Source: Halohasta salina (GTDB lineage: Archaea; Halobacteriota; Halobacteria; Halobacteriales; Haloferacaceae). From it: 64,000 bases of DNA. Below, one piece after another: positions 6,029 through 42,093 of the stretch. Position numbers and translations under genes: made by a program. Below the pieces are notes generated by a model. The model was not told the DNA's origin, ran no database searches, and worked only from the letters and a program-made list of their open reading frames with translations. Within the stretch, counting starts at the first letter, position 1, and every line of letters starts with the position of its first letter. The stretch is taken from positions 248,001 through 312,000 of the forward strand of contig NZ_JAMZIE010000003.1 of NCBI RefSeq assembly GCF_024178165.1, given 5' to 3'.

Positions 6029-6550
6029 CTACTGGTCGGCCAGCAGTTCGCTGGCGTTCACCAGCGCGTCGAGTTCCAGGTCGTGGTCGGCGAGGTTCTC
6101 GGTCGCGCCCTCCTCGCGGTCGACGACCACCAGCACGCGGTTGACCGTCGCGCCGGCCTCGCGGAGTGCCTCGGCGGCGTCGACCGCGGAGTTGCCGGTC
6201 GTGGCGATGTCTTCGAGGACGACGACCTCCTCGCCCGCTTCGAGTCGACCCTCGATTCGGTTGCCCGTCCCGTACTCCTTGGCCTGCTTGCGGGCGATCA
6301 CGTAGGGCCGGTCGGTCTCGGTCGCGGTGACTGCAACCAGCGGCACCGCACCGAGGGCGACGCCGGCGAGTTTCGGCTCCTCGATCTTTTCGGCGAAGGC
6401 TTCGGCGATGAGTTCCAGACAGTGGGGGTCGGTCTCGAAGAGGTACTTGTCGACGTAGTAGTCGCTGGTCCCGCCGTGGGAGAGTTCGAACTCGCCGTAC
6501 TGGACCGCATCGGCCGCCCGGAGCGCGTCGATGAGTTCCTGATTCGTCAT
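6029..6550 (-). CDS. pyrE: Orotate phosphoribosyltransferase
   Basis: Joins orotate to PRPP to give orotidine 5'-monophosphate in pyrimidine synthesis. The 173-residue length is normal for haloarchaeal PyrE. The PRPP loop [13 protein letters not shown] is clear, and the dimer-loop lysines lie in [12 protein letters not shown]. The M-T-N-Q-E-L start is set by a TTTAAG box (6575-6580) 25-30 bases upstream, so the message is probably nearly leaderless. It is monocistronic as far as visible. Confidence 0.95.
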
Positions 6551-6574
6551 TGTGCGTCGTCGGCAGGCCGTCGG

Positions 6575-6580
6575 CTTAAA
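6575..6580 (-). promoter_or_regulatory. TATA box of pyrE
   Basis: On the minus strand this reads TTTAAG inside CCGTTTAAGCC, the usual haloarchaeal TATA consensus, 25-30 bases before the pyrE start. Confidence 0.6.
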
Positions 6581-6728
6581 CGGGCGGGATCCGATCCGCA
6601 CCGCGTACTCGCCGACAGTTGTGGGTTGTTTTTACTATTCTCCATACTCGGCTGACGACTGATTCGATGTCCGAACCAGAATCAAACGCTTCGAATCGAA
6701 ATCTCTCGCTTTGGCGACCGACAGTTTT

Positions 6729-6737
6729 GTATAATAT
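6729..6737 (+). promoter_or_regulatory. TATA box for the leader frame and carrier gene
   Basis: GTATAATAT lies in an AT-rich patch 19-27 bases before the ATG at 6756. With the usual 25-base TATA-to-start spacing, transcription would begin at or near that ATG, well upstream of the carrier start at 6881. Confidence 0.55.
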
Positions 6738-6755
6738 GGGCACAACCAAACTGAT

Positions 6756-6884
6756 ATGCACACCGATCAGTCGACACCTGTCTTGCTGTCCGCGTGCCGT
6801 TCCGGCGCGCCGCCGGCCGCCGGCGCTCCGCTGCGGGTCGACGCCGGACGGATACTGTCGTCGACCGGCGGGAGGGGAGCATGA
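6756..6884 (+). CDS. 42-residue upstream frame coupled to the BASS/ACR3-like carrier
   Basis: The frame encodes M-H-T-D-Q-S-T-P-V-L-L-S and on to a TGA that overlaps the carrier's ATG (ATGA). It sits at leaderless distance from a good TATA box, is free of stops for 42 codons, and has one cysteine in LLSACRSG. It has no membrane segment or known domain. The overlap and promoter position suggest translation coupled to the carrier. It may instead be a chance open frame in a 120-base leader, since G+C is high. No homologue is recognised. Confidence 0.45.
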   Translation: MHTDQSTPVLLSACRSGAPPAAGAPLRVDAGRILSSTGGRGA

Positions 6885-7885
6885 TACGGTCGTATCTCAT
6901 CGCGCTGAAGCAGAACTTGATCTACGTCGTGATCGCCTCGCTCGTGGGTGGCCTCGCTTTCGGGCAGGTCGCCGGGCCGGGAACCAAGGGGCTGCTCAAG
7001 ACGGCGGTGGTGCCGGTGTTGTTCCTGATGATCTACCCGATGATGATCAACATCGATCTCCGGGAGATCCTCCACGTTCGGACCCACGCCAAGGTCGTCG
7101 CCCTCACCCTGTTGCTCAACTTCGGGTTCGCGCCGCTGCTGGCGGTCGGTCTCGGTCGGCTGTTTTTCGCCGGCTCGGTCGGCTACACCATCGGCCTCTA
7201 CTTCATCGCGCTGATCCCTTCCTCGGGGATGACCGCCGCCTGGACCGGGCTGGCCGGCGGCGATCTGGAGTCGGCGCTGGTCGCCATGTCGGTGAACCTG
7301 CTGGCGGCGATCGCCATCCTCCCGGCGTATCTGTCGCTTCTGATTCCCGGCAGCGTCGGCTTCGAGCCCACGGCACTCTACCGCCAGCTCGCCACGGTGA
7401 TCGTCGGCCCGATGGTCGCCGGCACGATCACCCGTTCGGTGATCCTTCGCCGGTACGACTCCGATGGGCTCAAACGGCTGAAACCAGTGTTCGGCGGCGT
7501 CAGTTCCCTGGGCGTGATGCTGATCGTCTTCATCGCGATGACGATGCGGTCGACCGCGATCCTCAGCGATCCGATCACCTCCGCGACTACGGTCGTCCCA
7601 CTGCTCGCGTTTTACGCCGTTATTCTGGCCGTGGGCGCGGGGCTCGGCCGCCTGCTGTTGTCGGACGAACTGGGTATCTCGCTGGTGTACGTCACCAGCA
7701 TGCGGAACCTCTCGATCGCGGTCGCCATCGTCGTCGCCAGCGACAGCCTCCCGACCGAGGCCGTCCTCCCGATCGCGCTGGCCTACATCATCCAGCCGCC
7801 GCTGGGGGCGGTGTACATGCACTACCGCCGGGACGTCGTCGACGAGGGGCTGTCGATCAGGCAGGCGGTCGCCAATATGGTCTAA
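6881..7885 (+). CDS. BASS/ACR3-superfamily membrane carrier lacking the ACR3 cysteine
   Basis: A 334-residue protein with ten predicted membrane helices, related to bile acid:sodium symporters and the arsenite exporter ACR3. At residues 113-128 it reads PSSGMTAAWTGLAGGD. This aligns with the ACR3 segment P-C-T-A-M-V-x-V-W, so the conserved ACR3 cysteine is replaced by serine. The substrate is therefore open (arsenite, another oxyanion or an organic acid). GGGAGG lies 5-11 bases before the ATG, an unusually clear ribosome site for this window, fitting an internal start after the leader frame. No arsR or arsenate reductase is adjacent. Confidence 0.75.
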   Translation: MIRSYLIALKQNLIYVVIASLVGGLAFGQVAGPGTKGLLKTAVVPVLFLMIYPMMINIDLREILHVRTHAKVVALTLLLNFGFAPLLAVGLGRLFFAGSVGYTIGLYFIALIPSSGMTAAWTGLAGGDLESALVAMSVNLLAAIAILPAYLSLLIPGSVGFEPTALYRQLATVIVGPMVAGTITRSVILRRYDSDGLKRLKPVFGGVSSLGVMLIVFIAMTMRSTAILSDPITSATTVVPLLAFYAVILAVGAGLGRLLLSDELGISLVYVTSMRNLSIAVAIVVASDSLPTEAVLPIALAYIIQPPLGAVYMHYRRDVVDEGLSIRQAVANMV

Positions 7886-40809: not shown

Positions 40810-40921
40810 ATTAGGATTATATATGCTCCGAGGTCGCTTCGACAGCCCGTCGGCTCCCGGCGGTTTCGTCGCTGACTCGATTTTATAATAATTCTTACCT
40901 ACTTTTTCCATGAACGAGAAA

Positions 40922-40928
40922 TTTTATT
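40922..40928 (+). promoter_or_regulatory. TATA box of the TauE-type gene
   Basis: TTTTATT inside GAAATTTTATTGTCG lies 32-38 bases before the ATG at 40960 and so excludes the earlier in-frame start at 40927. Confidence 0.5.
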
Positions 40929-40959
40929 GTCGAACTCGAAAAAGCGGATTCACGATTCA

Positions 40960-42093
40960 ATGAGTTCGGCTTCGTCGTCCGGCGGGCTCCAGCGGACGTT
41001 TCTCGAATACCAGTACGTGTTCGTCTTTCTCGCACCACTCCTGTTCGTTGTCGGTGTCCTCCTCGCAGCACCGCTTCCGGCGGCGGCGGGCGAGGGCTAC
41101 TGGCTGGAGTTCTGGTGGCTGTTCCCGGTGTTCCTGCTGGGGGCGACCATCGTCAACACGGTCGGGATCAGTGGCTCGGCGCTGTTCGTGCCGTTTCTGA
41201 TCTTCCTGTATCCGATCATGGCGGTTCGGCTCGCCCCGGAGTCGCTGTTGGAGCCGCCGCTGTCGCCCGAAACCATCGTCAAGATCGGGCTCATCAGCGA
41301 GTCCTTCGGGCTGTCGAGTTCGGCGCTGGCGTTCATCCAACACGGGCTGGTCGACCGGCGACTCGCGCTCACGCTCGTCGGCGGCTCGATCCCGTTCGTC
41401 GTCGGCGGCGCGCTGCTCTCGTTTGTTATCCCTGAGCCGGTGTTCCAGTTCCTCTTGGCGCTCGCGCTGCTGGCGGCGTCGGTGCTCCTCTTCAAGGCCG
41501 ATCTGGGCCACGACGATCCCGCCGACGATGTCGACGATACCGATGCAAGCGAGGGCGTCGCTGTCGAGGCCGACGGCGGTCCCGACCTCCCCGACGACAG
41601 CGGCAAACCCGGCTCGGCTGGCGTCAGGACCGACGACGACGGCGTCGTCACGCGCGTCGACCGCGACGGTAGCAGTTACAGCTACACCCGCGGCGGCTAT
41701 CTCGAACGGTTCGGCAACTACAGCATCGGCGGCGTCTTCCAGGGGCTGGCCGGCTTCGGCATCGGCGAACTGGGCATTATTTCGATGCTGCGGACTTCCG
41801 TCCCGGTCCGGATCGCTATCGGCACTAACCACATTGTCGTCGCCATGACCGCGGTGCTGGCGTCGCTGGTCCACGTCTTCGGTGGCGGGCTGGTCGGCGG
41901 CCACACGATGGATCTGGCGTCGACGCCGTGGAACGTGGTCGTCTGGACCGTCCCGGCGACCGTCACCGGCGGCCAGATCGCCCCCTACATCTCCTCGACG
42001 CTCGACACCGAGATCCTCAAACACGGTGTCGGCGTGCTGTTCGCGATCATCGCCACCGCGCTGTTCGTGATGTCCGCCAGCGGCGTTATCTGA
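40960..42093 (+). CDS. TauE/SafE-family sulfite or organosulfur exporter
   Basis: A 377-residue protein with eight or nine helices in two repeats. The first repeat holds GATIVNTVGISGSALFVPF and the second holds FQGLAGFGIGELGIISML and ATVTGGQIAPYISS, the paired glycine-rich loops of the family. A 60-residue acidic cytosolic loop (DDPADDVDDTDASEG) joins the halves. Homologues export sulfite, sulfoacetate or related anions, but the substrate here is unknown. Confidence 0.85.
   Translation: MSSASSSGGLQRTFLEYQYVFVFLAPLLFVVGVLLAAPLPAAAGEGYWLEFWWLFPVFLLGATIVNTVGISGSALFVPFLIFLYPIMAVRLAPESLLEPPLSPETIVKIGLISESFGLSSSALAFIQHGLVDRRLALTLVGGSIPFVVGGALLSFVIPEPVFQFLLALALLAASVLLFKADLGHDDPADDVDDTDASEGVAVEADGGPDLPDDSGKPGSAGVRTDDDGVVTRVDRDGSSYSYTRGGYLERFGNYSIGGVFQGLAGFGIGELGIISMLRTSVPVRIAIGTNHIVVAMTAVLASLVHVFGGGLVGGHTMDLASTPWNVVVWTVPATVTGGQIAPYISSTLDTEILKHGVGVLFAIIATALFVMSASGVI

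Follow-up and report, generated by a model that had tools for sequence, protein, structure and literature searches.

The 42-codon reading frame that precedes an SBF-family carrier gene is probably a leaderless, content-free coupling ORF, which would pass ribosomes on to the carrier by termination-reinitiation, a reading drawn from comparison of the locus with its orthologues. It lies in the 64,000-nucleotide stretch of DNA analysed here (the window; GC ~65%). The features of the locus are as follows.

6723..6745, + strand: promoter/operator-like motif AGTTTTGTATAATATGGGCACAA, a TTGT...ACAA dyad overlapping a TATA-like box (matrix score 16.1)
6756..6884, + strand: leader ORF and candidate coupling frame, 42 codons, ATG start 29 nt past TTGT, predicted to be leaderless
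6870..6875, + strand: GGGAGG, an SD-like element inside the 3' end of the leader ORF
6881..6884, + strand: ATGA stop/start overlap, 4 nt shared by the leader ORF and the carrier
6881..7885, + strand: SBF-family carrier (bile acid:sodium symporter / ACR3-like), 334 aa

The original prediction described a 42-codon frame joined to the carrier by an ATGA overlap, and this is borne out: the frame stops at TGA 6882-6884 and the carrier begins at ATG 6881, giving the 4-nt overlap expected of haloarchaeal termination-reinitiation. GGGAGG provides the SD-like motif in the upstream frame that is helpful, though not essential, for that process. As the window holds 34 copies on both strands against 58 expected, the earlier description of this element just 5' of the carrier as rare stands. 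The idea that the GC-rich central part of the frame carries a repeat element was rejected, since in the organism's own genome an 18-base core occurs at 3 places against 7 for the reversed control.

Bases 6729-6737 read GTATAATAT and occupy -27 to -19 relative to the leader ATG, while the conserved TTGT element begins at 6727, which is -29. A motif matrix was trained only on 10 leaderless carriers of relatives and then applied to all 53 haloarchaeal loci of the sample described below; its top match 5' of the window's carrier is the motif at 6723-6745. The motif common to the orthologues is TTGT-N9-ACAA with a TATA-like core, the window and the two relatives closest to it having N11 in place of N9. 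At the leader ORF, whose 5' end is predicted, the motif-to-ATG distance is 29 nt, compared with 22-37 nt in leaderless carriers. Comparative genomics, in the form of this motif-ATG layout and its occurrence in orthologues, thus supports the leaderless start originally proposed. The dyad lying over the TATA core resembles a regulator site that has been retained from genus to genus, through which the carrier may be regulated. A search of the organism's own genome for the dyad, allowing 2 mismatches, returned 55 matches against 101 for the reversed control, and hence no regulon signal.

The carrier had been called BASS/ACR3-like, of which the first part holds. It matches Pfam SBF (PF01758) at 6.2e-26 (91.7 bits against a gathering threshold of 24.3), which places it in the SBF / BASS superfamily, whereas its score of 84.6 bits against the ACR3 model TIGR00832 is far under the curated cut-off of 282.8. 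ACR3 arsenite efflux transporters have a conserved cysteine within a transmembrane helix; the 334-residue carrier contains no cysteine at all. Bacterial bile acid symporter structures match it at E 0.026-0.058 only. All alignments with full-length relatives begin within residues 1-6 of a carrier started at 6881. This position is hence the likely carrier start, and an alternative in-frame GTG at 6794 was rejected. Carrier neighbours at four loci (L160, L161, L162 and L033) include DUF302, TusA, TauE/SafE, DoxX and FAD oxidoreductases, which hints at sulfur chemistry over arsenic; one of these records labels the carrier ‘arsenic resistance protein’. No neighbour common to the loci was found among crudely called genes around 13 loci (20 proteins scanned).

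The window's relatives are haloarchaea, of the family holding Halorubrum, Haloquadratum and Halonotius. Orthologues were collected by a family-level search (170 genomes, 36 with a carrier match at 1e-40) and an order-level search (392 genomes, 29 with a carrier match at 1e-60), and a scan of contigs of named genomes gave 71 carrier loci. After duplicate, partial and distant rows were dropped, 55 carriers were kept, of which 53 are haloarchaeal. Left out were L001 (which repeats the locus of the window), 28 duplicates, L016 among them (identity judged over the carrier's first 300 nt), L119 (internal stops), L121, G007 and G008 (partial matches), L159, and, as distant relatives, L067-L071 and L073-L102. 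L063 and L064 (Altiarchaeales) were excluded from the frame test and included in the carrier tree. Later searches (the families around G466 and G209, the class, and a fetched stretch) yielded only three plasmid records as new loci, L160, L161 and L162.

By position of the motif, the 53 loci divide into 13 leaderless carriers, 29 with the motif more than 45 nt away (promoter-distal) and 11 below the cut-off; the motif-to-carrier distance is 22-37 nt (about 27) in the leaderless class and 55-184 nt in the distal class. The frame and overlap sought upstream of orthologues are present at 18 of the 29 promoter-distal loci, in the form of an ATG 22-33 nt past TTGT and a frame open into the ATGA or GTGA of the carrier (18/30 with the later-added counterexample L161). 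The two other phases gave such a frame at 0/29 loci, and dinucleotide-shuffled spacers gave the layout at a mean of 0.86 loci, with a maximum of 4 in 2000 shuffles. The 22-33 nt distance window was chosen once the loci had been read, which leaves it in part dependent on them. With most carriers starting ATG-AT, a frame in that phase is bound to terminate at this point; what the test does tell lies in the placed ATG and the openness of the frame, for which the shuffles and the other two phases are the control.

Kinship among loci inflates the raw 18/29, and spacers were for this reason clustered by similarity. A strict leader ORF occurs in 11 of the resulting 17 clusters, two of the 11 being mixed. 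In a carrier phylogeny built by maximum likelihood, 28 rows bear the leader-ORF label (the 18 strict loci, L118, L107, L019, L017 and six Halorubrum loci); this label requires 8 changes, at least 4 of them forced by well supported branches, and the leaderless label (15 rows) requires 4, at least 3 of them forced. Nor is the frame broken in close relatives, a finding that would have counted against the prediction: the nearest two orthologues (carrier identity 90% and 81%) keep the start, the open frame and the overlap, although their peptides are quite different and the frames of the window and these two relatives measure 42, 13 and 43 codons. Coupling through the ATGA overlap, as first proposed, is likewise favoured by these comparisons.

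The strict test failed at 11/29 comparable loci, and deviations from the layout take several forms. L015 and L106 have no ATG or GTG leader ORF beyond the motif; at L120 the upstream reading is in frame with the carrier; L111 is a truly leaderless carrier whose motif was misplaced by the scan. The overlapping ORF begins ~101 nt past the motif at L009, L020 and L022, falls outside the distance window at L017, L019 (with GTG) and L107, and has only a GTG start at L026. The Haloarcula clade (L049, L161, L162) also deviates: the short frame of L049 terminates ahead of the carrier, and at L161 the motif is present with a spacer of 119 nt that contains no ATG frame. At L033 and L160 the carrier stands behind a DUF302 gene and the motif is absent, a situation that L005 and L006 resemble by upstream sequence.

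Some further observations concern individual lineages. Between L015 and L016, whose carrier starts are the same, the spacer differs by a single G of a run just before the carrier, and this shifts any upstream frame. Among Haloarcula copies, L119 is the carrier with internal stops and L162 (Haloarcula halophila) has no annotated gene at the match; both are probable pseudogenes. At L007, L008, L009 and L020, a 4-codon mini frame (ATG or GTG ... AGA TGA) lies 5' of a 28-codon leader ORF and overlaps it by ATGA, as if coupling frames were chained; L014 and L022 have no such mini frame.

What the frame encodes appears to matter little. The 28 leader peptides (12-50 aa) have no obvious resemblance from one genus to another. 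The suggested comparison of synonymous and nonsynonymous change gave no purifying selection on the peptide: pooled over 7 independent close pairs, all from other loci (the window's own frame being too diverged for codon-by-codon alignment), the leader ORF has a pN/pS of 1.14 and the carrier, over its first 100 codons, one of 0.18 (Fisher p 4e-15). GC content by codon position is flat in leader ORFs (0.65/0.63/0.67) and strongly periodic in carriers (0.66/0.43/0.83), and net charge is positive in 25 of the 28 peptides, negative in 1 and neutral in 2. At the same time, no new stop has arisen in the leader ORFs of the close pairs, for which the neutral P is a modest 0.01, or 6.5e-5 with the start codon counted among mutable sites. 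Neutral pN/pS combined with the lack of stops implies that the peptide evolves freely while the frame is retained; as far as sequences can tell, it is the frame that is selected for, and not the peptide sequence.

These data bear directly on the two roles first suggested for the peptide. A regulatory leader, which would stall or attenuate carrier translation when a ligand or amino acid is sensed through its codons or the nascent peptide, would be compatible with the position and the coupling, and the TTGT/ACAA dyad does suggest a regulated gene. Such peptide sensing is nevertheless unsupported, as no residue is conserved between genera, and it sits poorly with peptides of such unequal length and a pooled pN/pS above 1. 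In addition, the RNA fold is no better than shuffles (z -0.9), and positions 6500-7200 gave no Rfam match up to E 1, observations on which an RNA structure or riboswitch was also rejected; we regard the regulatory leader as unlikely. A small functional protein, for instance a carrier subunit, would be in keeping with the finding, in passages of PMC10666635, that ATGA-overlapping pairs are often subunits of one complex. It is very unlikely here, given the lack of any common sequence, of any Pfam or NCBIfam match and of purifying selection where this is measurable (pN/pS ~1), and given the variable lengths, the flat codon-position GC and a basic charge that departs from the low isoelectric points described as typical of haloarchaeal proteins in the part of PMC4983044 that deals with them.

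The remaining alternatives deny the frame a role altogether. It might be incidental, with translation of the carrier starting internally, led by an SD or otherwise, behind an ordinary 5' UTR; GGGAGG is indeed at a usable distance, and the lineage of L015 and L016 apparently does without a leader ORF. A look-alike also occurs in the same window: among 55 crudely called genes, with 32 candidate starts followed by A, the combination of TATA-like box, ATG frame and overlap is found at two, the carrier and a TauE/SafE gene (40960), where a TATA-like box precedes a 17-codon ATG frame with an ATGA overlap (40911-40963). TauE matches were present in 87/170 genomes, and the sequence 5' of the gene was read at 20 loci, that of the window among them; since the same-genus orthologue L135 is without the ATG, the TauE/SafE layout is probably chance. 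The carrier pattern by itself could be chance too, and it is the comparative evidence, 18/29 loci against 0.86 expected and none in the other phases, that raises it above that level. Furthermore, SD motifs are described in PMC6728339, within the sections cited, as inert for de novo initiation in haloarchaeal 5' UTRs, and there is little probability left for an incidental frame. Finally, the transcript could start near 6881 and the carrier be leaderless like its cousins, the motif directly preceding the carrier in 13/53 orthologues. However, no AT-rich box lies ~27 nt 5' of 6881 and the sole strong motif is that at 6727, which makes this the least probable of the alternatives and hardly credible.

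The coupling ORF also finds a match in the distribution of reinitiation signals. An SD-like match of at least 5 nt within 25 nt 5' of the carrier is present at 14/22 leader-ORF loci, compared with 1/13 leaderless carriers and 17% of shuffles; no such element was found in the six Halorubrum loci (L007, L008, L009, L014, L020, L022). The suggestion that GGGAGG suits re-initiation thus gains comparative support.

We therefore propose that the leader ORF acts as an adapter. Transcription is predicted from the motif to begin at the leader ATG or within a few bases of it, the ribosome would load on the bare 5' end of the mRNA and translate the short frame, and on terminating at the TGA, with GGGAGG close by, it would restart on the overlapping ATG of the carrier. 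Selection would then retain two things, a start codon at the 5' end of the mRNA and a frame that stays open and terminates on the carrier's own start codon. What the sequences show is the layout, its recurrence, neutral evolution of the peptide in relatives and the enrichment of SD-like matches; the transcription start at the ATG, the translation of the frame, strict coupling and regulation through the dyad are all inferred. Published results on Haloferax, in the passages cited here, fit a leaderless adapter for promoter-distal genes: 72% of transcripts are leaderless (PMC4983044), SD motifs in 5' UTRs are non-functional for de novo initiation, coupling was strict in 9/9 tested gene pairs with the SD helpful and not essential (PMC6728339), and coupling requires overlaps or very short distances (PMC10666635). 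If initiation works at a bare 5' end and not from an SD inside a 5' UTR, it follows that a haloarchaeal gene with its promoter 60-180 nt away needs an adapter frame.

The carrier leader ORF is placed as a variant of translational coupling. It shares with termination-reinitiation (TeRe) in Haloferax volcanii, as portrayed in the cited sections of PMC6728339 and PMC10666635, the haloarchaeal setting, the ATGA overlap and the SD-like motif within the upstream frame; there, however, the upstream frame is a real gene, and here it is a short frame with an unselected peptide. Short frames of 15-31 codons 5' of normal genes, in 16/97 very long 5' UTRs, are the likeness offered by the Haloferax volcanii uORFs in PMC4983044. 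All of their peptides had a low isoelectric point and were regarded as probable proteins, whereas ours are mostly basic, and the uORF passage of that report gives no conservation, overlap or coupling role, whereas the present layout is conserved across genera. A synthetic ‘nonsense’ upstream ORF in E. coli, in the portion of PMC13255528 that describes it, likewise combines a frame for a non-functional peptide with an internal ribosome site beside the stop and raises translation of the next gene. That ORF is engineered, bacterial and SD-led, while this one is natural, archaeal and predicted to be leaderless. In the literature searched, on leaderless and archaeal uORFs, leader peptides, termination-reinitiation and mycobacterial leaderless short ORFs, we found no account of archaeal coupling ORFs that are leaderless, content-free and recurrent; this does not prove that none exists. 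Cysteine-responsive attenuators of mycobacteria, themselves leaderless short ORFs, depend on conserved codons, whereas neither codons nor residues of the carrier leader ORFs are conserved between genera. More generally, a leaderless short frame 5' of a gene is what the carrier case has in common with the mycobacterial short ORFs in the passage of PMC4633059.

The carrier family amounts to a natural experiment on ribosome access, in haloarchaea, to genes that lack both a leaderless start and an SD-driven one: some members have the promoter at the gene itself, others at a short adapter frame that keeps only its start, its openness and the position of its stop. More tentatively, and with rather less confidence than we have in the locus itself, leaderless leader ORFs of no particular sequence may have evolved time and again in haloarchaea, as a module for initiation wherever a promoter stands off its gene. 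If so, a throw-away frame running from the 5' end to the start codon of the gene would replace leaderless and SD-led initiation, and the carrier family would be a visible example of a general device, overlooked by annotation for want of homologues of the peptides. The prediction would then be that, in archaeal 5' UTRs, many short frames that lack conservation and are discarded by conservation-based searches for small proteins function through their frame alone.
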